Shown piece after piece: positions 15,229 through 58,343 of a stretch of DNA of 64,000 nt (within the stretch, counting starts at the first letter, position 1; every line of letters begins with the position of its first letter). Under the pieces are notes generated by a model that saw only the letters and a list, made by a program, of their open reading frames with translations, did no database searches and was not told the origin of the DNA. This stretch comes from an uncultured Flavobacteriaceae bacterium (GTDB lineage: Bacteria; Bacteroidota; Bacteroidia; Flavobacteriales; Flavobacteriaceae). A program made the position numbers and the translations under genes. The DNA is taken from positions 44,399 to 108,398 of the forward strand of contig CALKEO010000004.1 of assembly GCA_938088195.1 (NCBI GenBank), written 5' to 3'.

Positions 15229-15260
15229 TTGTTTCTTTTCAAAATTTAATCCTATATTTG
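15229..15260 (+). promoter_or_regulatory. Bacteroidota-type promoter for rpsO (TTG -33 / TATATTTG -7)
   Basis: TTG at 15229-15231 and TATATTTG at 15253-15260, 21-nt spacer; agrees with the TTTG/TAnnTTTG consensus. Confidence 0.6.
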
Positions 15261-15314
15261 CGCCTCCAATAAATAAATATTGGTTACATAAGAATTATTT
15301 ACAAAAATATTGGC

Positions 15315-15584
15315 ATGTATTTATCTAAAGAAAACAAAAAAGAAATTTTTAAAAAACACGGAAAGTCAGACTCAGATACTGGATCTGCTGAGGGTCAAAT
15401 CGCTTTATTTACAGTTAGAATAAATCATTTAACTGAACATCTTAAAAAAAATCGTAAAGATTTTAATACTGAAAGATCTTTGGTAATGATGGTTGGTAAA
15501 AGAAAAAGTTTACTTAGCTACTTAAAAAATAAAGATATTACTCGTTACAGAGAAATTATTAAGAAACTTAATCTGCGTAAATAA
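15315..15584 (+). CDS. rpsO: 30S ribosomal protein S15
   Basis: 89 aa; GSAEGQIALFTVRINHLTEHLKKNRKDFNTERSLVMMVGKRKSLLSYLK. Confidence 0.98.
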   Translation: MYLSKENKKEIFKKHGKSDSDTGSAEGQIALFTVRINHLTEHLKKNRKDFNTERSLVMMVGKRKSLLSYLKNKDITRYREIIKKLNLRK

Positions 15585-41515: not shown

Positions 41516-41847
41516 TTTGAAGGGGGCTGTAGTTTTAAATTTTTTGAAAAATATTCACAAAACTGTTTAAATGCATCCGTCATTTTTTCATTTTGAGTGG
41601 ATTTTGAAAAAGTTTCACTCATACTTACCAAAGTTTGATGAAAAAAAACATTCATTTGGTCTAAAGGCATGTCTTTTGTCCATAAATCAATTTTTAAAGT
41701 CTCCTGCTTTTTATGATCCCAAACGGAAATAAAAACAGCTTTAGAATTCTCATTTGAAATTCCACCATCTGGCGCAGACCAATTAATTTTTTCAGGAATC
41801 TTATTCTCATCAAGTTCAACATTAAATGATATTTGAGTCTTTTTCAT
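41512..41847 (-). CDS. gldC: Gliding motility protein GldC
   Basis: 111 aa; ISFNVELDENKIPEKINWSAPDGG; adjacent to gldB. Confidence 0.92.
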   Translation of the reverse strand: MKKTQISFNVELDENKIPEKINWSAPDGGISNENSKAVFISVWDHKKQETLKIDLWTKDMPLDQMNVFFHQTLVSMSETFSKSTQNEKMTDAFKQFCEYFSKNLKLQPPSN

Positions 41848-42788
41848 TATTTTTTTGGTTTATATTTGGATTTTATAAAAATTTCATAATAGTCCTCATT
41901 TAAAAGACTTTTAACATTTACATTATTGTTTTTCATATACGAATTTACAATTTTATAGCCTAACCATTTACCAATACTTCCGGGTGATTGTTTATCAATA
42001 TCAAGATTAAATTTAGAAAATGGTGCGAATGAAATAAATCTAGATTTCAAATCATTTTTTGTACTGAACAAAAAATCATTTTCAATAAAAAAACTCCAAA
42101 TATTGCGTTCATTTTCATTAGCCCAAACTAACTTTTCTTTTGTTGAACGAAATTGTACGAAATCTTTTTTTTCAGCATTAAAAAATTTATTTAAATAAAT
42201 AATCTTACCATGATATATCATCTCACTCAATAAAGTCCTGTCAATAGGTTTTCTTGCAAATTTTTCTAAAATTTTGGTAGAAACATCGATGATTAAGTGT
42301 TGCTTAGTCATATTAGTTGAAATATATTTTGGCAAATCAGGATAAAAAGTATCACCAAGAAATGAATCAAGAGAAATAAACAACAAGGAATCAGAATAGA
42401 TAACTCGATTTTCATATTCAGATTGAGAATTTAACGTTATAATTTTAGGTCTTGAGAATGTTGGAATATTTTCTTCAATATTCAAAAATAAAGTCAATAA
42501 TTTTTTTTTTTCATCGACAAAATTATTAAATACTAGTGAACTTTTGTCAAAAATCGCTAATCTAATAGAGTCTTTTAAAAAAGACTCCCAAGTCTCTATT
42601 GGGTATTGTTTTGGAAATAAATATGGGTATTTTTTAATGAGCAATTGAAGATCATCTTTAGATGAATTATAGAATTCATTCTCAAAACGGTTAATAATTA
42701 AATTATTTTTAATTGAATTATTTTCACATCCAAAAAAAAACAATAAAAAAAAAGGGAAAATGAACTTATATATTTTAAAATTTATCAT
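41847..42788 (-). CDS. gldB: Gliding motility lipoprotein GldB
   Basis: Lipobox FFFGC; YPYLFPKQYPIETWESFLKD, FISLDSFLGDTFYPDLPKYI; gldBC pair. Confidence 0.92.
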   Translation of the reverse strand: MINFKIYKFIFPFFLLFFFGCENNSIKNNLIINRFENEFYNSSKDDLQLLIKKYPYLFPKQYPIETWESFLKDSIRLAIFDKSSLVFNNFVDEKKKLLTLFLNIEENIPTFSRPKIITLNSQSEYENRVIYSDSLLFISLDSFLGDTFYPDLPKYISTNMTKQHLIIDVSTKILEKFARKPIDRTLLSEMIYHGKIIYLNKFFNAEKKDFVQFRSTKEKLVWANENERNIWSFFIENDFLFSTKNDLKSRFISFAPFSKFNLDIDKQSPGSIGKWLGYKIVNSYMKNNNVNVKSLLNEDYYEIFIKSKYKPKK

Positions 42789-47711: not shown

Positions 47712-48761
47712 TTATATTATTAACATGGCATCGCCATAAGAATAAAAATTATATTTTTCTTTGATAGCAACTTGGTAAGCTTCTTTAACAAAATCATGAC
47801 CACCAAAAGCTGCGGCCATCATTAGCAATGTAGATTTAGGTGTATGAAAATTTGTAATCATAGAATCTGCTAGACTAAAATCATATGGTGGAAAAATAAA
47901 CTTATGAGTCCAACCTGAATAAGGATTTAATGTTTTAAAAGATGACACTGAGGATTCCAAAGCCCTCATTGAGGTTGTTCCAACAGCACATATTCTTTTT
48001 TTATTTTTTTTTGCATTATTAACAATATCACAGGCATTTTGATTGATAAAGAGCTCTTCCGAATCCATTTTGTGTTTAGAAAGATCCTCAACTTCGACTG
48101 GATTAAAAGTGCCTAAACCAACGTGAAGTGTTATTTCTGCAATATTAATTCCTTTGATTTCAAGTCTTTTCAACAAATGTTTAGAAAAATGCATTCCTGC
48201 TGTTGGTGCAGCAACAGCACCCTCGTGCTTAGCGAAAATTGTTTGATACCTATCTTTATCAAAGCCTTCCTCTTCCCTTTCAATATACTTTGGTAACGGA
48301 GTCTGTCCTAATTCAAAAAGTGCTTTACGAAACTCATCATATGAACCATCAAATAAAAATCTTAATGTTCTTCCTCTTGATGTTGTATTGTCAATTACTT
48401 CGGCAACCAAGCTATCATCTTCTCCAAAATAAAGCTTATTTCCAATTCTTATTTTTCTAGCCGGATCCACTAATACATCCCATAATCTTTGTTCATCACT
48501 TAACTCTCTTAAAAGAAAAACTTCAATTCTAGCTCCAGTTTTTTCTTTATTACCCATTAATCTCGCAGGAAAAACTTTAGTATTATTTAATACAAAAGCA
48601 TCACCTTCATCAAAATAATTAACTACGTCTTTAAATGTTTTATGCTCAATAGTTTCATTTTTTCTATCAAGAACCATCAATCTAGATTCATCTCTGTGGT
48701 CAGAGGGATATTGTGTTAATAATTTAGATGGTAATTCAAAGTTAAAATGAGATAATTTCAT
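47712..48761 (-). CDS. queA: S-adenosylmethionine:tRNA ribosyltransferase-isomerase
   Basis: [63 protein letters not shown]. Confidence 0.97.
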
Positions 48762-48781
48762 GTGTTTTATTTTTAAAAATG

Positions 48782-48813
48782 CAAATATACACTTGTGAAA
48801 GTAGCAAAGTCAA
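48782..48813 (-). promoter_or_regulatory. Bacteroidota-type promoter for queA
   Basis: Minus strand TTG-N21-TATATTTG directly upstream of the queA start. Confidence 0.6.
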
Positions 48814-48834
48814 GTTTATTTAAATATAATTTCT

Positions 48835-50061
48835 TTAGACCTCTGATAATTTAAAGTTTAATTTCTCTAAGACTGACCAAAAAGAGGGAAAAGATTTAGA
48901 AATTACTTTGGGATTATTAATTATTATTGGTTTAACTATTCCTAAAGTTGCAAAAGCCATTGCCATTCTGTGATCATCATAGGTATTAATGATAATATCT
49001 TTTTTGATTATTATTGATTTTTTTAAATGTAAACTATCTTCTGTAATAATTACGGTTGCACCTAATTTTTCAAGTTCCACCTTTAATGCTAATAGCCTAT
49101 CGGTTTCCTTTATTTTAAGAGTGTGTAGCCCATAAAGATCGCACGGCAATCCTAATCCAAAACAAGTTACCGCTATAGTTTGAGCTAAATCTGGCGTATC
49201 ATTTAGCTTAAGCTCCAGTTTCTTTGGAAGTTTAAAATTTCTAGTCTTTTTTAAACTAACCTTATTGTTTTTAAAAATAGTTTTCACACCTAATTTATCA
49301 TAAATTTCAACTAATTTTTTATCGCCCTGAATTGAATTTTTAAAATATGTTCCAATATTAATTTCTGAACTTTTGGACAGTGCAACTACACTGAAAAAAT
49401 ATGATAAAGAACTCCAATCAGATTCTACATAATGTTTAGAAATATTTAAATTTCCAACTGGTTTAATCTCAATTCTATTATTTATAAATGAAGTTTCTAC
49501 TCCAATTCTGTCTAGTAAGGCTAGGCTCATATCAATATATGGCTTTGATGTAATTTCACCTATTAAATTAATAATTAAACCTTTTTCTAAACTTGGAGCA
49601 ATTAGAATTAAAGCTGTTATATACTGACTACTAATTTTTGCATCTAGAGAGACATTAAATACATTTAACTTTTTACCATTAATTTTTAAAGGGGGATATC
49701 CTGTTTTATCAATATATTTTACATCAGCTCCCAAATCATTTAAAGCATCTACTAAAATTTTAATTGGTCTATCATGCATTCTATCCGACCCGGAAATTAC
49801 ATAAGACTTGTTTTCTTGAATCGAAAAATAAGCAGTCAAAAAACGCATAGCTGTACCTGCATGGTGAATATTTACTTTACCCGAATTACTTAAAAGACCT
49901 TTTTCTAATACAACAGTATCATCAGAGTCAGATATATTATCTATTTCTATATTTTCCAAAAGATATTTCAAAATAAGTAATCTGTTAGATTCACTTTTAG
50001 AGCCTGAAATATTAAAAGATTTTTTTATTTCATTGTTAGGATGTGAAATTAAAAATCTCAT
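48835..50061 (-). CDS. aroA: 3-phosphoshikimate 1-carboxyvinyltransferase
   Basis: SGSKSESNRLLIL, HAGTAMRFLTAYF, SDWSSLSYFFS, IKETDRLLALKVELEKLGA, DDHRMAMAFA. Confidence 0.95.
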   Translation of the reverse strand: MRFLISHPNNEIKKSFNISGSKSESNRLLILKYLLENIEIDNISDSDDTVVLEKGLLSNSGKVNIHHAGTAMRFLTAYFSIQENKSYVISGSDRMHDRPIKILVDALNDLGADVKYIDKTGYPPLKINGKKLNVFNVSLDAKISSQYITALILIAPSLEKGLIINLIGEITSKPYIDMSLALLDRIGVETSFINNRIEIKPVGNLNISKHYVESDWSSLSYFFSVVALSKSSEINIGTYFKNSIQGDKKLVEIYDKLGVKTIFKNNKVSLKKTRNFKLPKKLELKLNDTPDLAQTIAVTCFGLGLPCDLYGLHTLKIKETDRLLALKVELEKLGATVIITEDSLHLKKSIIIKKDIIINTYDDHRMAMAFATLGIVKPIIINNPKVISKSFPSFWSVLEKLNFKLSEV

Positions 50062-50393
50062 TTATTTTTATTTAGTTTAGGGTTATTAATATGTCTTACA
50101 CGATCTCTTTTAGATTTTAATTTTAATTTATCACTAAAGGCTGATTCTAAATCACAATTCGTTTGATTGGCAATACAAAAAACAACAAATAAAACATCTG
50201 ATAATTCTTCACTTAAGTTTTTTTCTTTATCTGATTCTTTCTCTGATTGTTCCCCATATCTTCTTGCGATTATTCTTGCCACTTCACCCACTTCCTCAGA
50301 AAGTTGAGCCATATTAGTTAAAGGGTCAAAATAACGAACCCCATATTGTTTTATCCAATTATCAACTTGCTTTTGTAGTATTTTTAATCCCAT
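50058..50393 (-). CDS. MazG-like nucleotide pyrophosphohydrolase
   Basis: MGLKILQKQVDNWIKQYGVRYFDPLTNMAQLSEEVGEVARIIAR...LSEELSDVLFVVFCIANQ. Met at 50393 preferred over listed 50441, removing the overlap with dtd. Confidence 0.9.
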   Translation of the reverse strand: MGLKILQKQVDNWIKQYGVRYFDPLTNMAQLSEEVGEVARIIARRYGEQSEKESDKEKNLSEELSDVLFVVFCIANQTNCDLESAFSDKLKLKSKRDRVRHINNPKLNKNK

Positions 50394-50394
50394 T

Positions 50395-50856
50395 TTATTC
50401 TTTGTTTTTTGAATCAATAAAAATTGTAACTGGACCGTCATTCTCTATTTTTACTAACATATCTGCTCCAAAAATTCCAGCTTTTGGTTTTTTGTTAATT
50501 CTAGTTTCAATTGATGTTAAAAATTTTTGATAAATTTTTTTAGCGTAATCACTTTTAGCAGCCTTAATATAGGAGGGTCTATTTCCTTTTTTAGTTAAAG
50601 CATGTAATGTAAATTGACTGATTACAATAACATCGCCCTTAACGTCAACTAATGACTTATTCATTATTCTGCTTTCATCATCAAAAATTCTTAACTGACT
50701 TAGTTTTTTAGTTGTCCAATCTATATCATTTTCATTATCATTGATTTCTATTCCCAGTAATATGACCATCCCTAGATCTATAAACGATACCACTGAATTT
50801 CCAACTTCAACACTAGCTTTTTTTACTCTTTGTACAACTACTCTCATTAATTCCAA
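50395..50856 (-). CDS. dtd: D-aminoacyl-tRNA deacylase
   Basis: MRVVVQRVKKASVEV, VISQFTLHALTKKGNRPSYIKAA, GIFGADMLVKIENDGPVTIFID. Confidence 0.96.
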   Translation of the reverse strand: MELMRVVVQRVKKASVEVGNSVVSFIDLGMVILLGIEINDNENDIDWTTKKLSQLRIFDDESRIMNKSLVDVKGDVIVISQFTLHALTKKGNRPSYIKAAKSDYAKKIYQKFLTSIETRINKKPKAGIFGADMLVKIENDGPVTIFIDSKNKE

Positions 50857-51788
50857 AAATCAGTTCTATAATTTTTATTTTCATCTACCATCATGCTTAA
50901 ATAATTTTTATATCTAGATTTAGAAATCTGTCCATTATTTAAACTGTTTTTTACAGCACAGTTTGGTTCATTTTGGTGTAAACAATTGTTAAATTTACAA
51001 TCATGCTTGATTAATCGAAATTCTGAAAAATAATTACTTAATTCACTTTTGTCTATATCAATTAATCCAAAACCTTTGATTCCTGGGCTGTCAATAATTT
51101 TAGCTCCAAATTTTAAATCAAACATTTGAGCATAAGTTGTTGTATGTTGGCCTTGTTGATTTTGATGGGAAACTGAAGCTGTTTTTAAATTTAAATTAGG
51201 ATCCAAAAGATTTATTAAACTAGATTTCCCTACACCACTATGACCAGTAAAAATTGAAATTTTATTTTTCATTAGATTTTTAACGAAATTGATATTTATT
51301 TTTTCTTTTACAGAAATATTCAAACATTTGTAACCTATTTTTGAATAAATATCTTTTAAAGATTCAATAAAATCCGTATCGCTGGTTGAATAACTATCAA
51401 TTTTATTAAATAAAATAACTGTTTCAATTCCAAAAGATTCAGTTGCTACCAAAATTCTGTCAATAAAAACAGAAGAAGTAATTGGATTATTTGGCGTAAC
51501 AAATAGAAAACAACAATCAATATTAGAAGCAATAATATGTGAAAGTTTTGATAAGTTCACTGATTTTCTAATTATGTAATTTTTTCTTTTTTCAATTTTA
51601 TAAATTACACCAGTGTATTCGTTTTGATTTACAATATCAAATAAGACCCTATCACCAACAGCAATTGGATTTGTACTTTTAATACCATATGATCTGAATT
51701 TTCCTTTTATTGTACAATTATAAACCTCCTTAATCTCTGTTTTAACAGAATATAAGTTTCCGGTTGATTTATAAACAGTTCCTATCAT
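50847..51788 (-). CDS. rsgA: Ribosome small subunit-dependent GTPase A
   Basis: FTGHSGVGKSSLINLLDP, QHTTTYAQMF, DSPGIKGFGL, C-terminal Cys-rich zinc region. Confidence 0.96.
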   Translation of the reverse strand: MIGTVYKSTGNLYSVKTEIKEVYNCTIKGKFRSYGIKSTNPIAVGDRVLFDIVNQNEYTGVIYKIEKRKNYIIRKSVNLSKLSHIIASNIDCCFLFVTPNNPITSSVFIDRILVATESFGIETVILFNKIDSYSTSDTDFIESLKDIYSKIGYKCLNISVKEKININFVKNLMKNKISIFTGHSGVGKSSLINLLDPNLNLKTASVSHQNQQGQHTTTYAQMFDLKFGAKIIDSPGIKGFGLIDIDKSELSNYFSEFRLIKHDCKFNNCLHQNEPNCAVKNSLNNGQISKSRYKNYLSMMVDENKNYRTDFWN

Positions 51789-51791
51789 AAA

Positions 51792-52874
51792 TTAACCATT
51801 AATAACTCTTTTTTGATGATTAATTGATTCTTGATGAATTGCTTTAAACATTCTTAAAATAAACTCCTCACTTAATCCCTTTTTTTCACCGTCTAAAATC
51901 ATTTTTCCTAAAATTTCATTCCATCTTTTGGTCTGTAAAACTGCAACATTTTTTTTCTTTTTTAAGTTACCAATTTCAATGGCTACTTTCATTCTTTTAC
52001 CTAAATTATCTAGAAGACCGTGATCTATAACATCAATTTGAGTTCTAAATGTGTTTAAGCTGTTCTTGTAATCAAATTCTTCATTAGTAATTTTTCTCAT
52101 TTTTAAATCCTCCATCATTTTGATTAGAACTTTTGGGGTGATTTGTTGAGCAGCATCACTCCAAGCTTTGTCAGGATTTGTGTGCGTTTCAATCATTAAT
52201 CCATCAAAATTCAAATCCAAAGCTGTTTGAGAAATATCTTGCAAAATATCTCTTCTTCCAGCTATGTGTGAGGGATCACAAATTAAAGGCAAATCAGGAA
52301 ACCTGTTTTGTAATTCAATTGGTAATTGCCACTCTGGGTTATTTCTATAATTAGTTTTTTCATAAGTCGAAAAACCTCTGTGAATAACTCCAAGTTTTTT
52401 GATATTAGCACTGTATAACCTTTCAATTCCTCCAAGCCACAAGGCCAAGTCTGGATTTACTGGATTTTTTACTAATACAATTTTGTCAGTTCCTTCAAGA
52501 GCATCAGCAATTTCTTGAATAATAAATGGACTAACTGTTGATCTGGCTCCAATCCATAAGATATCCACATCATGATCTAAGGCAAGCTTCACATGATTAG
52601 AATTAGCAACTTCCGTTGCTATTAAAAGACCTGTTTCTTCTTTTACCTTCTGTAACCATTTTAAACCAATAGCCCCAACACCTTCAAACATTCCCGGCCT
52701 CGTTCTAGGTTTCCAAATACCAGCTCTAAATATTGAAACATCCGAATTTTTTAGCTCATGTGCAATTTTTAAAACCTGATCTTCAGTTTCTGCACTACAT
52801 GGTCCAGCAATTACCAACGGGTGATTAAGTTTAAAATCATCAAGCCAATTTTTCATTTCTTTTTTATTTTCCAT
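51792..52874 (-). CDS. Bifunctional DAHP synthase / chorismate mutase type II
   Basis: VIAGPCSAETEDQVLKIA, RAGIWKPRTRPGMFEG, HRGFSTYEKTNYRN; C-terminal chorismate mutase helices. Confidence 0.93.
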   Translation of the reverse strand: MENKKEMKNWLDDFKLNHPLVIAGPCSAETEDQVLKIAHELKNSDVSIFRAGIWKPRTRPGMFEGVGAIGLKWLQKVKEETGLLIATEVANSNHVKLALDHDVDILWIGARSTVSPFIIQEIADALEGTDKIVLVKNPVNPDLALWLGGIERLYSANIKKLGVIHRGFSTYEKTNYRNNPEWQLPIELQNRFPDLPLICDPSHIAGRRDILQDISQTALDLNFDGLMIETHTNPDKAWSDAAQQITPKVLIKMMEDLKMRKITNEEFDYKNSLNTFRTQIDVIDHGLLDNLGKRMKVAIEIGNLKKKKNVAVLQTKRWNEILGKMILDGEKKGLSEEFILRMFKAIHQESINHQKRVING

Positions 52875-52884
52875 TATTATAATT

Positions 52885-53727
52885 CTATTTTGTTAAAATT
52901 TGTTTAATTCTATTTGTGTTATTAAGGATTGAAGATAACGTTGAATAATTATTTTCTTCAATCATTTCCTTAATTTGATTTAGGTTAGATATATATTCAT
53001 TAATCGCTAAAACTAAATTGTTTTTGTTTTGCAAAAAAATTGGAGTCCAAGTTGCTGGAGAACTTTTTGCCAACCTTACAGTAGATTCAAATCCACTTCC
53101 AGCTAAATCAAAAATATTTTTTTCGTTTTTTTCCTTTTCAATTACTGTCTTTCCTAACATAAAAGAGCTAATGTGAGATAAATGAGAAACATATGCAACA
53201 TGAACATCATGAGATTTTGAGTCCATTTTTATAATATTCATATTGAGCATCTTAAATATTCGAAGGGCTTTTTTATAAATCTTAGGATTGGTTTTTTCAA
53301 TTTCACACACAATATTATTTTTATTTAAATAAAGGCCTTCAACAGCAGCATTTGGGCCTGAAAATTCAGTACCAGCCATTGGATGTGTTGCCAGAAAGTT
53401 TTTTCTATTTGGGTGATTTAATAATGCTTCACAAATTGGAAGTTTTGTCGAACCTACATCAAAAACTAATGTATCCTTATTTACAGAATTTAGAATTTTA
53501 GGTAACTCTTCTAAAGATTTATCGACAGGTATTGCTACAAGTACTACATCAACCTTTGATAATTGTTCCAAAGTTATTAATTCATCGATTAACCCTAATT
53601 CTAAGGCACGATTTTCATTTTTTTTAGATTTATCTAATCCGAAAATTTTAGATTTCGGATAAATTGATTTAAAATCTAAAGCAAAAGAACCTCCCATCAA
53701 ACCTAATCCTATAATTCCTAATTTCAT
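52885..53727 (-). CDS. tyrA: Prephenate dehydrogenase
   Basis: LGIIGLGLMGGSFALD, FDVGSTKLPI, FLATHPMAGTEFSGP, SHLSHISSFML. Confidence 0.93.
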   Translation of the reverse strand: MKLGIIGLGLMGGSFALDFKSIYPKSKIFGLDKSKKNENRALELGLIDELITLEQLSKVDVVLVAIPVDKSLEELPKILNSVNKDTLVFDVGSTKLPICEALLNHPNRKNFLATHPMAGTEFSGPNAAVEGLYLNKNNIVCEIEKTNPKIYKKALRIFKMLNMNIIKMDSKSHDVHVAYVSHLSHISSFMLGKTVIEKEKNEKNIFDLAGSGFESTVRLAKSSPATWTPIFLQNKNNLVLAINEYISNLNQIKEMIEENNYSTLSSILNNTNRIKQILTK

Positions 53728-54875
53728 TTTTTACATCTTTTTATAGCATCCTTAATTTTTTCTTCGTCAACACATAAAGAAAACCTAATATAACCCTCTC
53801 CATTACTACCGAAAATTGTCCCAGGAGCAATAAAAATATTTTTTTTAGTTAATAAAGTATTAATAAAATTTTCTGAACTATTAATGTGATTAGGAAGCTT
53901 AGCCCAAACAAACAATCCTTTCGAATTTTTATCAAATTCACATTTTAAAATTGTAGCAAGTTGCCAAACTAACTCTCTTCTTCTTTTATAAACTTTATTT
54001 AATTCATCAAACCATTTTTTGTCAAGATTAAGGGCTTCAATAGCACCTTTTTGAATCCCATAAAACATTCCTGAATCCATATTACTTTTAACTTTTAAAA
54101 CTCTTAAAATATTTTCTTTAGACCCCAAAAGCATCCCTACTCTCCAACCCGAGAGATTGAATGATTTACTCAGAGAATTGAGCTCCATACAGTTTTCTTT
54201 TGCCTTGTTTATGGTTAATAAACTGATAAAATCATCATTTAAAATAAAACTGTAAGGATTATCATTTATTAAAAGAATATTATTTTTTACCGAAAATTTG
54301 ATTAATTCATTTAATTGTTTTTTAGTCGCAAATGATCCTGTCGGCATATTGGGATAATTAATCCACATAATTTTCACTTTTTTTAAGTCTTTTTTTTGTA
54401 ACTCTACTACGTCCGGAAACCAATTGTTTTCCTTCTTTAAGTCATAAAAAACTGGGGTTGCTTCTACAAGATTAGTCACTGTTAAATATGTGGGATACCC
54501 AGGGTTTGGAATTAAAACTTCATCCCCTTTATTTAAAAATGCCATGGATATGTGCATAATACCCTCCTTAGAACCCATTAATGGTAAAATCTCGTCAACT
54601 GGACTAGATTTAACTTTAAAAAATTTTAAATAGAATTTTGAAATTGCTTCTCTAAGTTCTGGAAGACCTTGATAACTTTGGTATCTGTGAGAATTTAAAT
54701 CTGACAAACTGTTTTTCAAAATATTTATTACAGTTTTTGATGGAAACAAATCAGGACTACCTATACCCATATTAATTATAGGTTTTCCTGATTTAATTAA
54801 TGAGGCTACCTCTCTCAATTTTTTTGAGAAATAATATTCTTTAACAGTATCTAGCCTATTTGAACCTTTAATCAT
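53724..54875 (-). CDS. PLP-dependent aminotransferase in the aromatic operon
   Basis: NMGIGSPDLFPS, PNPGYPTYLTV, NYPNMPTGS, NSLSKSFNLSGWRVG. Confidence 0.9.
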   Translation of the reverse strand: MIKGSNRLDTVKEYYFSKKLREVASLIKSGKPIINMGIGSPDLFPSKTVINILKNSLSDLNSHRYQSYQGLPELREAISKFYLKFFKVKSSPVDEILPLMGSKEGIMHISMAFLNKGDEVLIPNPGYPTYLTVTNLVEATPVFYDLKKENNWFPDVVELQKKDLKKVKIMWINYPNMPTGSFATKKQLNELIKFSVKNNILLINDNPYSFILNDDFISLLTINKAKENCMELNSLSKSFNLSGWRVGMLLGSKENILRVLKVKSNMDSGMFYGIQKGAIEALNLDKKWFDELNKVYKRRRELVWQLATILKCEFDKNSKGLFVWAKLPNHINSSENFINTLLTKKNIFIAPGTIFGSNGEGYIRFSLCVDEEKIKDAIKRCKK

Positions 54876-55689
54876 TTCTGTGGTTTTTATATATCCCTAA
54901 GACTTTTAAAGACGCTGATTTTTCTTTTATTAGGTCAAGAGCATTGTTGAAATTGTCATATTGATCAAAAGTAATGTCTATAAAAAAAGAATATTTCCAT
55001 GGAATTTCAATAATTGGTAAAGATTGAATTTTTGTCAAATTTAAATTGTATTCTTTTAAAATGTTTAAGACTAAAGCTAAACTGCCAGTTTTATGGCTCA
55101 ATGAAAATTTTAGAGAAGCCTTATTATTAATGTTATTTTCAAAATATAATTTAGAAACTATGACAAATCTTGTCTCATTATTTTTTATTGTTTGAATGTT
55201 TCTATTTAAAATTTCTAAATCATAAAGTTTAGCTGCATTAATACTTGCAATAGCGCCTAGGTTTTTGATTTTATCTCTTTGAATTCTATAAGCTACCTCA
55301 GCAGTATCTTTATCTTCAATAAGAGTTATTTTGGGGTAACTTTTAAAAAAGCTTTTACATTGTAGAAGAGCCATAGGATGAGATGAAACAGTACTTAAGT
55401 CTTTTATTTTAGTGCCTGGCAAAGCCATCAGTTGGTGGTTAATATTAATATAATACTCTCCAACTATTTTTAAATTTAAATCATCAATCAAAGCGTAATT
55501 TGGTATAATTGATCCTGCAATCGAGTTTTCAATTGCCATAACAGCAAAATCACAATGACTGTTTTTAATAGAGTTTGCAACTTCGTCGAATGATAAAAAC
55601 TCAATTATTTCTAACTTGTTTTTAAAATACTCATTAGCGACTTGGTAATGGTACGAACCCTTTATTCCTTGAATAGCTACCCTTTTCAT
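54868..55689 (-). CDS. pheA: Prephenate dehydratase
   Basis: VAIQGIKGSYHYQVANEYF, DFAVMAIENSIAGSIIPNY, SHPMALLQC, NNETRFVIVSK; C-terminal ACT domain. Confidence 0.94.
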   Translation of the reverse strand: MKRVAIQGIKGSYHYQVANEYFKNKLEIIEFLSFDEVANSIKNSHCDFAVMAIENSIAGSIIPNYALIDDLNLKIVGEYYININHQLMALPGTKIKDLSTVSSHPMALLQCKSFFKSYPKITLIEDKDTAEVAYRIQRDKIKNLGAIASINAAKLYDLEILNRNIQTIKNNETRFVIVSKLYFENNINNKASLKFSLSHKTGSLALVLNILKEYNLNLTKIQSLPIIEIPWKYSFFIDITFDQYDNFNNALDLIKEKSASLKVLGIYKNHRND

Positions 55690-55697
55690 TTTTATTT

Positions 55698-55730
55698 AAA
55701 AAAAAAGTCCTGAGTTAATCAGGACTTTTT
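55698..55730 (-). terminator. Intrinsic terminator of the pheA attenuator
   Basis: RNA AAAAAGUCCUGA-UUAAC-UCAGGACUUUUU, 12-bp stem, U-tract continuing through 55698; 9 nt before the pheA ATG. Confidence 0.9.
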
Positions 55731-55750
55731 AAAATATATTTTTTTAATTA

Positions 55751-55828
55751 TTACATATACAAAAGTCCTTTTTTAACTTCATAATAGAAGAAAAAATAAA
55801 AATTTTGGAAATAATAATTGCGTTTCAT
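55751..55828 (-). CDS. Phe/Tyr-rich attenuator leader peptide (25 aa)
   Basis: ATG AAA CGC AAT TAT TAT TTC CAA AAT TTT TAT TTT TTC TTC TAT TAT GAA GTT AAA AAA GGA CTT TTG TAT ATG TAA = MKRNYYFQNFYFFFYYEVKKGLLYM; 10 of residues 5-16 are Phe or Tyr. Confidence 0.88.
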   Translation of the reverse strand: MKRNYYFQNFYFFFYYEVKKGLLYM

Positions 55829-55845
55829 AATTAAATTGTCAGATG

Positions 55846-55876
55846 TAAAAGTAATATTAGTTATTGAAAAAACAAA
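55846..55876 (-). promoter_or_regulatory. Candidate promoter for the leader/pheA operon
   Basis: Minus strand TTTG-N19-TACTTTTA (near TTTG-N19-TAnnTTTG), about 18 nt before the leader ATG. Confidence 0.5.
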
Positions 55877-55885
55877 TTTTCTTAA

Positions 55886-56869
55886 TTAATTACTTAAAAT
55901 TGAAGTATGTTTTCTTGTGAATATTTCTGATAGTAATTCTCTTAACTGATCAAATTCAATTAAAAAAGCATCATGTCCATGATCAGATTTTATAGTTTTA
56001 AAAAACATATTATCTTTAATTACACAGGCTTTATAAAAAGTTTCTCTGTTCTGAAAATCAGTAAAAAATAAATCTGAGTCAACTGAAACTATATATATAT
56101 TCCCTTTAACCTTTGAAATAATATTTTCAAATTTCAATTTTCCTCCTCTAGTTATATCTATTTTTGACAACAAATGGTTCATTAATTTATAAGATTTTAG
56201 CTGAAATCTTTCCTGAAGTTTTTTACCATGGTGAAGTAACCAGCTTTCAACGTTGAAAATATGAGAATCTTTAGATCTGTCGAATTTTTTTTGAAATGAT
56301 AAAGGCGACCTGTAACACAACATAGCATGCATTCTTGCATCGTGAACAGGTTGGGAGGAATTGTTTAAAATCTGTTTTTGAAGTCTGGTGTTAGCTAAAA
56401 GCCAATCACTAGATTTCCAATCAGATGCGATAGGAATATAATTTTCAGAAAGTTCTGGAGATAATGCTGCAATTTCCCAAACTAACCCACCTCCAATAGA
56501 ACCTCCAATTATAGCAAATAATTTTTTTATTTTTAATTTTTCAAGACCAATTAAAAAAATATTTGCAATATCCCTCAAAATCAAGTCTTTATAATTTTTA
56601 ATAAAAAATCCATCATAACCATTCCCTGGAAAATTAAATGCCAGTACAGTAAAATCATTAGTGTCAATTAATTTATTTTGACCAATTAATGAGTTCCACC
56701 AGCCGTTTTTCCCTGTAACAGATGAGTTTCCTGTTAAAGCATGATTAACAAGAACAATTGGAGCTTGTCCCAAAGGTTGTCCAAATAATTCATAAGTAAG
56801 CTCAATATCAAAGTTTTTTTCATTTTCAGAAATGTAATCTTTAATATTGAGCTTAAATAAGTTATCCAT
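55886..56869 (-). CDS. metX: Homoserine O-acetyltransferase-like alpha/beta-fold protein
   Basis: VLVNHALTGNSSVTGKNGWWNSLIG, IIGGSIGGGLVWEIAALSPE, DSDLFF, DHGHDAFLIE; adjacent to metY. Confidence 0.88.
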   Translation of the reverse strand: MDNLFKLNIKDYISENEKNFDIELTYELFGQPLGQAPIVLVNHALTGNSSVTGKNGWWNSLIGQNKLIDTNDFTVLAFNFPGNGYDGFFIKNYKDLILRDIANIFLIGLEKLKIKKLFAIIGGSIGGGLVWEIAALSPELSENYIPIASDWKSSDWLLANTRLQKQILNNSSQPVHDARMHAMLCYRSPLSFQKKFDRSKDSHIFNVESWLLHHGKKLQERFQLKSYKLMNHLLSKIDITRGGKLKFENIISKVKGNIYIVSVDSDLFFTDFQNRETFYKACVIKDNMFFKTIKSDHGHDAFLIEFDQLRELLSEIFTRKHTSILSN

Positions 56870-56875
56870 ATATAA

Positions 56876-58168
56876 TTATGCTAATACTTTGGAATCAATT
56901 TTAGAAAAAGCTATTTCTAAATCGTTTTTAAGGTCACTTATATCTTCAATTCCAACTGAAAGTCTTATTAGTTCACTTGTAACTCCAGTTGTCGCTTGAT
57001 CTTCAACACTTAATTGTTGATGGGTTGTACTAGCGGGATGAATTATTAAAGATTTAGTATCTCCAATATTAGCTAACAAAGAAAAAACAGTTGTTTTATC
57101 TGCTATTGTTTTTGCAGACTCGTAACCTCCTTTAACTCCGAAAGTGACAATACCACTTTGACCTTTTGGGAGATATTTATTAGCATGTGATTTATATTTA
57201 CTTGAATTTAGTCCTGGATAATTTACCCATTCTACTTCACTTCTTTTTTCTAACCATTGAGCTAATTCAAGAGCATTTTCGCTGTGTTTCTTCATTCTTA
57301 TATCTAGAGTTTCAAGACCTTGAAGAATTTGAAATGCATTAAATGGACTTAGCGCACCTCCTAAATCTCTTAGTCCTTCAATTCTAACTTTAGCAATAAA
57401 AGCTGCAGCACCTAAAGCATCGTGATACACTAATCCATGATAACCAGGTGAAGGCTCGGTAAACTCAGGAAATTTTCCACTAGACCAATCAAATGTTCCA
57501 GCATCAATTATAGCACCTCCCAAAGCTGTTCCATTTCCATTAATGTATTTAGTTAAAGAATGGATAACGATATTTGCTCCGTGTTCTATAGGGTTTAATA
57601 ATGCTGGAGATGCAACAGTATTATCGACTACGAAAGGAATCTTTGATTTTTTTGCATGTTTAGATATTTCTTTTAAATCCAATACATCTAATTTTGGATT
57701 TCCTAAAGATTCAGCAAAAAATACCCTGGTATTTTCTTTTACCGCATCTGCGAAATTTTGAGGGTTTGATGCATCTACAAATGTTGTAGTAATTCCTAAT
57801 CTAGGAAGCGTAACATTTAAAAGATTAAAAGTTCCTCCATATAGACTGCTTGAAGCAACTATATGATCTCCTGCTCTAAGCATTACTAATAAAGCTGTAG
57901 ATATAGCTGCTGTTCCCGATGCTGTAACTACAGAGGCTATTCCTCCCTCAAGTGCAGCAAGTCTCTGCTCTAATACATCATTGGTTGGATTGTTCAACCT
58001 TGTGTAAATATACCCTGGCTCTGCAAGTGAAAATAAATTTGCAGCATGTTCAGAATCATTAAAAACATAAGATGTTGATTGGTAAATAGGTACAGCTCTT
58101 GTACCTTGGCTTAAATTGGTGTCATGCCCTGCATGCAATGCTTTAGTTGATAATTTTTGGTCACTCAT
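56876..58168 (-). CDS. metY: O-acetylhomoserine aminocarboxypropyltransferase / cysteine synthase
   Basis: STKALHAGHD, PIYQSTSYVF, YTRLNNPTNDVLEQRLAALEGG, IHSLTKYINGNGTALGG. Confidence 0.95.
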   Translation of the reverse strand: MSDQKLSTKALHAGHDTNLSQGTRAVPIYQSTSYVFNDSEHAANLFSLAEPGYIYTRLNNPTNDVLEQRLAALEGGIASVVTASGTAAISTALLVMLRAGDHIVASSSLYGGTFNLLNVTLPRLGITTTFVDASNPQNFADAVKENTRVFFAESLGNPKLDVLDLKEISKHAKKSKIPFVVDNTVASPALLNPIEHGANIVIHSLTKYINGNGTALGGAIIDAGTFDWSSGKFPEFTEPSPGYHGLVYHDALGAAAFIAKVRIEGLRDLGGALSPFNAFQILQGLETLDIRMKKHSENALELAQWLEKRSEVEWVNYPGLNSSKYKSHANKYLPKGQSGIVTFGVKGGYESAKTIADKTTVFSLLANIGDTKSLIIHPASTTHQQLSVEDQATTGVTSELIRLSVGIEDISDLKNDLEIAFSKIDSKVLA

Positions 58169-58241
58169 TTTTTATAATTTTTAATTATTAATTAAAAAAA
58201 TTAATTTCTGAGAAGATTTGACTAAAAGTTTTGGAAAGCAT

Positions 58242-58290
58242 CTGCTTTAGCACTTTTTTATTGAGGTTGCAATCAGTCAAATCGATCCTC
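58242..58290 (-). ncRNA. SAM-II-like (SAM_alpha) riboswitch aptamer upstream of metY
   Basis: RNA GAGGAUCGAUUUGACUGAUUGCAACCUCAAUAAAAAAGUGCUAAAGCAG: P1 GAGG/CCUC, loop with GAUUUgAC..AUUGCAA, 3' GCUAAA, and CUG/CAG pseudoknot, in SAM-II order; 74 nt before metY. Confidence 0.82.
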
Positions 58291-58343
58291 TTCGTTAACA
58301 ATTAAATGCTAATCTAAAGTTTTTTTTAATAAAAAAAAAAAAA

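Follow-up and report, generated by a model that had tools for sequence, protein, structure and literature searches.

What does a short minus-strand reading frame crowded with phenylalanine and tyrosine codons do directly upstream of pheA? The question arises from a 64,000-nt stretch of DNA (the window) from an uncultured Flavobacteriaceae bacterium. The earlier note had read the frame as a leader peptide sensing both charged tRNAs, and the leader-peptide reading gains strong support here from well over 100 loci, in which the ORF is conserved and its aromatic codons keep to one frame, a terminator is present, and an antiterminator co-varies with it at a spacing that resembles a ribosome footprint. 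The pheA leader is very probably a ribosome-mediated transcription attenuator, through which the availability of charged aromatic tRNAs would govern how strongly the pheA-aminotransferase-tyrA-DAHP synthase/chorismate mutase genes are expressed.

Re-translation returned exactly the ORF that had been described: 26 codons, five Phe and six Tyr in MKRNYYFQNFYFFFYYEVKKGLLYM, ten aromatics in the 12-residue run YYFQNFYFFFYY, and a gap of 61 nt between the end of the ORF and the pheA ATG at 55689 (Table 1). The leader ATG at 55828 has an A at -3 and no Shine-Dalgarno sequence. The same is true of most leaders in the family, with A at -3 in 84 of 108 and a Shine-Dalgarno-like sequence in none, and a start of this kind fits the translation habit of Bacteroidota (PMC6847099). 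Upstream, metX ends at 55886 on the same strand. The TTG-N19-TACTTTTA arrangement that precedes the leader is, by pattern match, its candidate promoter; a TTG-N19-TACWTTTR layout also precedes the leader of the close relatives L002, L031, L032, L033, L039 and L041, and the promoter pattern scores at least 8 of 9 in 89 of 107 family loci, against 7% of shuffles.

Table 1. Features of the pheA leader and of the gene block that it precedes (window coordinates).
Feature	Position	Strand	Details
Predicted promoter, Bacteroidota type	55846..55875	minus	TTG 55873-55875, 19-nt spacer, TACTTTTA 55846-55853
Leader ORF	55751..55828	minus	MKRNYYFQNFYFFFYYEVKKGLLYM*, 25 aa + stop
Control codons, run YYFQNFYFFFYY	55781..55816	minus	codons 5-16 of leader
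Segment 2, antiterminator arm, AGGACTTTT	55761..55769	minus	inside 3' end of leader ORF
Segment 3, terminator 5' arm, AAAAAGTCCTGA	55719..55730	minus	alternative partner of segments 2 and 4
Segment 4, terminator 3' arm, TCAGGACTTTTT	55702..55713	minus	U-tract 55698-55706
pheA, prephenate dehydratase without fused chorismate mutase	54868..55689	minus	PF00800, 1.4e-54
Class I/II aminotransferase	53724..54875	minus	PF00155; 8-nt overlap with pheA
tyrA, prephenate dehydrogenase	52885..53727	minus	PF02153/PF20463 (PDH_N/PDH_C); NF006307 above cut-off
DAHP synthase-chorismate mutase fusion	51792..52874	minus	PF00793 + PF01817
rsgA GTPase, D-Tyr-tRNA deacylase, MazG-like, aroA (EPSP synthase)	48835..51788	minus	Pfam

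The statement that the operon serves both Phe and Tyr synthesis stands, with pheA and tyrA each borne out by Pfam. Beyond the DAHP synthase gene, after a gap of 3 nt, the rsgA, D-Tyr-tRNA deacylase, MazG-like and aroA genes overlap one another, and no second minus-strand terminator-like site was found in 48600-56900 besides that at 55702-55730. Given the overlaps, the 3-nt gap and the lack of an intervening minus-strand terminator, the operon probably continues into these four genes, their co-transcription being deduced from this arrangement. The D-Tyr-tRNA deacylase and aroA genes (48835-50856, minus) sit in this probable extension, so the leader may control both as well.

Between the leader ORF and pheA lies a strong intrinsic terminator, AAAAAGTCCTGA-TTAAC-TCAGGACTTTTT, with its stem-loop at 55702-55730 and a T-tract reaching 55698. 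It has a 12-bp stem, a 5-nt loop and nine T residues; shuffling the 401-bp stretch gave an expectation of 0.0 such structures. The 9-nt segment 2, which lies within the ORF near its 3' end, can pair with 55721-55729. This duplex has an energy of -11.9 kcal/mol, against an average of about -5.8 for shuffled sequences (p=0.007 with dinucleotide shuffles). The terminator, the antiterminator segment inside the ORF and the promoter pattern were all absent from the earlier note. The locus thus has the features of a trpL/pheL-type attenuator: a short Phe/Tyr-rich ORF upstream of a Phe/Tyr biosynthesis operon, a terminator between that ORF and the first structural gene and, from pairing predictions and the joint variation of the arms, an antiterminator that could not form together with the terminator and would be covered by a ribosome that has reached the leader stop.

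The regions upstream of pheA were compared across the family and the phylum, as the earlier note had proposed. Relatives of pheA were taken by similarity from family genomes and GTDB contigs, and a leader was scored as an ATG-started ORF with at least six aromatics in 12 codons. Among the 110 Flavobacteriaceae loci so obtained, which are related and in some cases near-duplicates, so that the counts are not independent events, 109 carry such a start- and stop-bounded aromatic ORF, beginning 123 to 372 nt upstream of pheA. The sole exception, L042, has just 104 nt of upstream sequence and keeps the terminator. A terminator was detected by program in 109 of the 110 (that of L005 is visible by eye), and the design of leader, terminator and antiterminator is present in 108. 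All 18 of a set of more divergent family members have leader and terminator, with antiterminator pairing at p<=0.05 in 16.

Of the 20 nearest loci beyond the family, 13, belonging to other orders or classes of the phylum, possess all three parts (p<=0.02), with leaders that differ in sequence, such as GCCGGGACT and GAGAACTT. In one further locus, G269, the leader is accompanied by a weak terminator and antiterminator pairing is unsupported, and no leader was found in the remaining six (G212, G292, G273, G306, G320 and G290). There was likewise no leader before 20 more distant pheA genes sampled from the phylum (L161-L180). Several of these have a frame that is open over 300 nt ahead of the PDT domain, a layout compatible with a fused protein.

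The region is AT-rich and metX ends just upstream on the same strand, which leaves room for a chance ORF beside a terminator that merely ends metX transcription. Such a coincidence is extremely improbable. When the 400 nt preceding pheA were shuffled 2000 times, nine aromatics in 12 codons turned up once and ten, the number in the leader, never; the whole 64 kb, shuffled 20 times by dinucleotides, yielded ATG ORFs of 10-50 aa with at most eight. Conservation throughout the family, and the recurrence of the arrangement with quite different sequences in other orders and classes, also speak against chance. So does frame specificity, since the best 12 codons hold a mean of 8.6 aromatics in frame 0 across 108 loci, and 2.3 and 3.6 in frames +1 and +2. 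This contradicts the idea, raised in the earlier note as a possible refutation, that the run is unselected AT-rich sequence. A separate short ATG ORF on the plus strand of the window (41826-41903, MIFESFSLFFWFIFGFYKNFIIVLI) has eight aromatics in 12 codons and is likely a chance overlap.

Within the leaders, third positions vary (TTT/TTC, TAT/TAC), and F and Y swap places between the close relatives L001, L039 and L041. The pattern looks like selection for aromatic codons rather than for one peptide. An action of the peptide itself, whether by nascent-chain arrest of the TnaC/Erm type or as a small functional hydrophobic protein, would account for its conservation and hydrophobicity. We consider it very unlikely, because the order of the F, Y and W residues varies freely and because the ORF ends before segment 2 in nine loci (L028, L040, L068, L069, L071, L073, L075, L105 and L109), all of which retain the RNA segment a few nucleotides past the stop. 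The RNA is thus kept where the end of the peptide is not, and the C-terminus is dispensable. In these early-stop loci, a ribosome at the stop would need its front edge to mask segment 2, a different masking geometry.

The antiterminator was sought by duplex folding; an exact shared-word search for segment 2 was dropped as too strict, since G-U pairs are in use. The segment 2:3 duplex is more stable than the mononucleotide-shuffled mean in all 108 loci (mean -12.6 versus -7.1 kcal/mol), and reaches p<=0.05 in 76 of the 108 when dinucleotides are shuffled (p=0.34 in the relative L041). Because dinucleotide shuffling weakens the significance at single loci, the argument is carried by joint variation and geometry. 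The core comes in four types (GTCCTG, GTCTCG, GTCCCG and ATCCTG), each with matching segments 2 and 4. A leader combined with a terminator of its own type gives -12.2 to -15.7 kcal/mol, versus -5.3 to -11.5 when types are swapped. In the sequences compared, the antiterminator and terminator arms change jointly between lineages.

At the window locus segment 2 begins 11 nt past the last aromatic codon of the run, and the corresponding distance is 9-12 nt in 95 of 108 loci and exactly 11 in 68. An offset of about 11 nt places segment 2 where the front edge of a stalled ribosome would be. We folded the RNA with a fixed ribosome footprint whose front edge lies 13 nt from the first A-site base, the value for Escherichia coli. 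In this model of the window locus, segment 3 is held by upstream RNA with a probability of ~0.77 for every position of the A site within the run, of which codon 16 is the last; the probability is 0.55 at codon 17 and drops to 0.07 at codon 18, with 0.02 at the stop. In the model the antiterminator is therefore available as long as an aromatic codon occupies the A site, and it disappears within about two codons of the end of the run; segment 2 is still free with the ribosome at codon 2, so that no strong protector hairpin of segments 1 and 2, of the kind seen in E. coli trp, is evident. Means for the 108 loci are 0.75 in the run versus 0.07 at the stop, and all 108 change in that direction. When full-length RNA is folded to equilibrium, the terminator prevails in four of five example loci, which means that the switch has to be a kinetic one, decided during transcription.

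We computed what parts the element has, how far they are conserved, how they vary together and how they are spaced. From these results we infer its operation, in which the leader would be translated, ribosomes would stall, transcription would terminate in the cell, and Phe and Tyr (and Trp) would be sensed. RNA polymerase would start shortly upstream of the leader ATG and a ribosome would translate the leader. When charged tRNA-Phe or tRNA-Tyr is scarce, the ribosome would slow in the run YYFQNFYFFFYY, with its front edge halted just short of segment 2, leaving segment 2 to pair with segment 3 as it emerges; the 3:4 terminator would then not form in time and the operon would be transcribed. 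When the tRNAs are charged, the ribosome would reach the stop codon and cover segment 2, segment 3 would pair with segment 4, and transcription would end before pheA. Where a leader carries a Trp codon, Trp might be sensed in the same manner.

Which amino acids matter is the less certain part of the model. Each of the 108 leaders has at least two Phe and at least two Tyr codons, and joint sensing of both is plausible. It is also conceivable, though on balance unlikely, that the attenuator is real but has a single main effector, most probably Phe, with the Tyr (and Trp) codons mattering little. Phe codons are slightly commoner (a mean of 5.0 per leader versus 3.9 Tyr), and the AroR leader of Corynebacterium glutamicum, with its Phe-Tyr-Phe stretch, answers Phe and not Tyr (PMC11802643). 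However, the presence of both codons in every leader, the exchange of F and Y between close relatives and the presence of tyrA as well as pheA in the operon do not favour a single effector, and the footprint model shows segment 2 to be free at each of the aromatic codons in the run.

Alternatively, the leader might sense all the aromatics including Trp, the operon having the only DAHP synthase, and the lineage of the window would have lost its Trp codon. Exactly one Trp codon is found in 67 of the 108 leaders, and a single family DAHP synthase encoded in the operon would give a reason for it. By Pfam the operon's fusion is that single enzyme: it is the sole PF00793 match in the genome of the window (assembly about 80% complete), and no class II DAHP synthase was found in that genome or in 29 further family genomes. 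In those 29, PF00793 matches the operon fusion and, in all but one, a second shorter protein, which is a KDO8P synthase in the one case tested. Nevertheless, 41 of the 108 leaders have no Trp codon, including those of the window's clade and Flavobacterium, and family genomes have the same single operon DAHP synthase with or without it, for which reason we rejected the notion that Trp codons track DAHP synthase copy number. A lone Trp codon may stall the ribosome little, and trpE has a leader of its own. Sensing of all three amino acids is accordingly a doubtful proposition.

The same genome encodes further leaders, and the presence of both Trp and His examples means that leader attenuation recurs there. 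Before hisG (L201, about 1221-1350) there is a His leader, MKFNRNNHHHLNILKRAM (HHH), with terminator and antiterminator; the antiterminator begins 11 nt from the last His codon and was matched by 0 of 200 shuffles. By its predicted parts, this leader shares the design of the pheA leader. Before trpE (L125, about 1330-1389) a Trp leader, MLKNLMFNIWWVINYDISR, is followed by a terminator, with neither a Bacteroid-trp match at the Rfam cut-off nor a detectable pheA-style antiterminator. The trp attenuator of this clade may use another pairing, perhaps through the terminator loop TCGCGA. An antiterminator of the pheA segment 2 type was mostly not found in the Trp leaders examined; the design thus differs between operons.

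The kind of regulation is well known. The attenuator of E. coli pheA (pheL; RF01859) likewise has a short aromatic leader, a terminator before pheA and alternative hairpins set by the ribosome. However, pheL is a Phe-only leader preceding a chorismate mutase-prephenate dehydratase fusion, whereas here Phe and Tyr, and often Trp, are mixed ahead of a pheA-aminotransferase-tyrA-DAHP synthase/chorismate mutase operon. The Rfam Phe_leader model RF01859 scores 19 bits at the locus, versus a cut-off of 55, and covers only the terminator region (55698-55749); judged by this score, the pheA leader is without sequence kinship to that family. Nor did any known Rfam riboswitch aptamer, T-box or Bacteroid-trp RNA (RF01692) match there. 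Bacteroid-trp, which entered Rfam from PMC2864571, is also a leader-peptide cis-regulator of Bacteroidota but is a different RNA, with Trp codons and the trp operon as its target; it scores above threshold before trpE of the relative L112. The only mixed precedent found in the literature on Phe/Tyr leaders is AroR, where Phe and Tyr codons also direct ribosome-stalling attenuation, before the DAHP synthase operon of C. glutamicum. AroR differs in belonging to the Actinobacteria, in its Phe-Tyr-Phe stretch as against ten aromatics and in controlling aroF, not pheA/tyrA; expression rose on Phe limitation and was unaffected by Tyr (Neshat et al. 2014, reviewed in PMC11802643).

According to a survey of 2010, leader-peptide systems had been known solely from Proteobacteria and Actinobacteria until it added a case in Firmicutes (PMC2965389). 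For Flavobacterium psychrophilum, the main text of a 2021 study offers strong clues for leader-peptide attenuation before amino acid operons and describes a structured 5' transcribed element before pheA, kept in other genera of Flavobacteriaceae and not in Rfam (PMC9723704). It is very likely, from that description, the same element as here. The main text gives no peptide, Phe/Tyr/Trp content, antiterminator or spread beyond the family. The suggestion in the earlier note that a mixed Phe/Tyr leader was undescribed was therefore too strong, given the F. psychrophilum element, RF01692 and AroR: the kind is known and the element has probably been seen before, and as far as the literature consulted shows, what is new is the peptide, its mixed specificity, the geometry of the antiterminator and the spread beyond the family.

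The pheA leader is a defined and testable regulator of aromatic amino acid synthesis in a large and little-studied phylum, and its mixed codons allow one to ask whether a single leader reports on several tRNAs. The mechanism needs a ribosome close behind RNA polymerase, and its wide conservation argues for transcription-translation coupling in Bacteroidota, which use few or no Shine-Dalgarno sequences. A broader proposition, put forward tentatively and at somewhat less than even chances, is that of a phylum-spanning attenuator in these bacteria, in which one peptide would integrate Phe and Tyr tRNAs, joined by Trp in many species, to regulate the only enzyme that leads into the shikimate pathway, the antiterminator lying one ribosome front edge past the last control codon. 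Usual gene calling overlooks leader genes of this length, and most annotations therefore probably lack the element.

Two other RNA elements were identified in the window. A SAM-II long-loop riboswitch (58237-58296, minus; RF01726, 70.5 bits) lies upstream of the metZ-like and metX-like genes, such that the met genes preceding the pheA leader and the aromatic operon have different RNA switches in tandem. An S15-Flavobacteria ribosomal protein leader (RF03161, 74.7 bits) is located at 15253-15317 on the plus strand.
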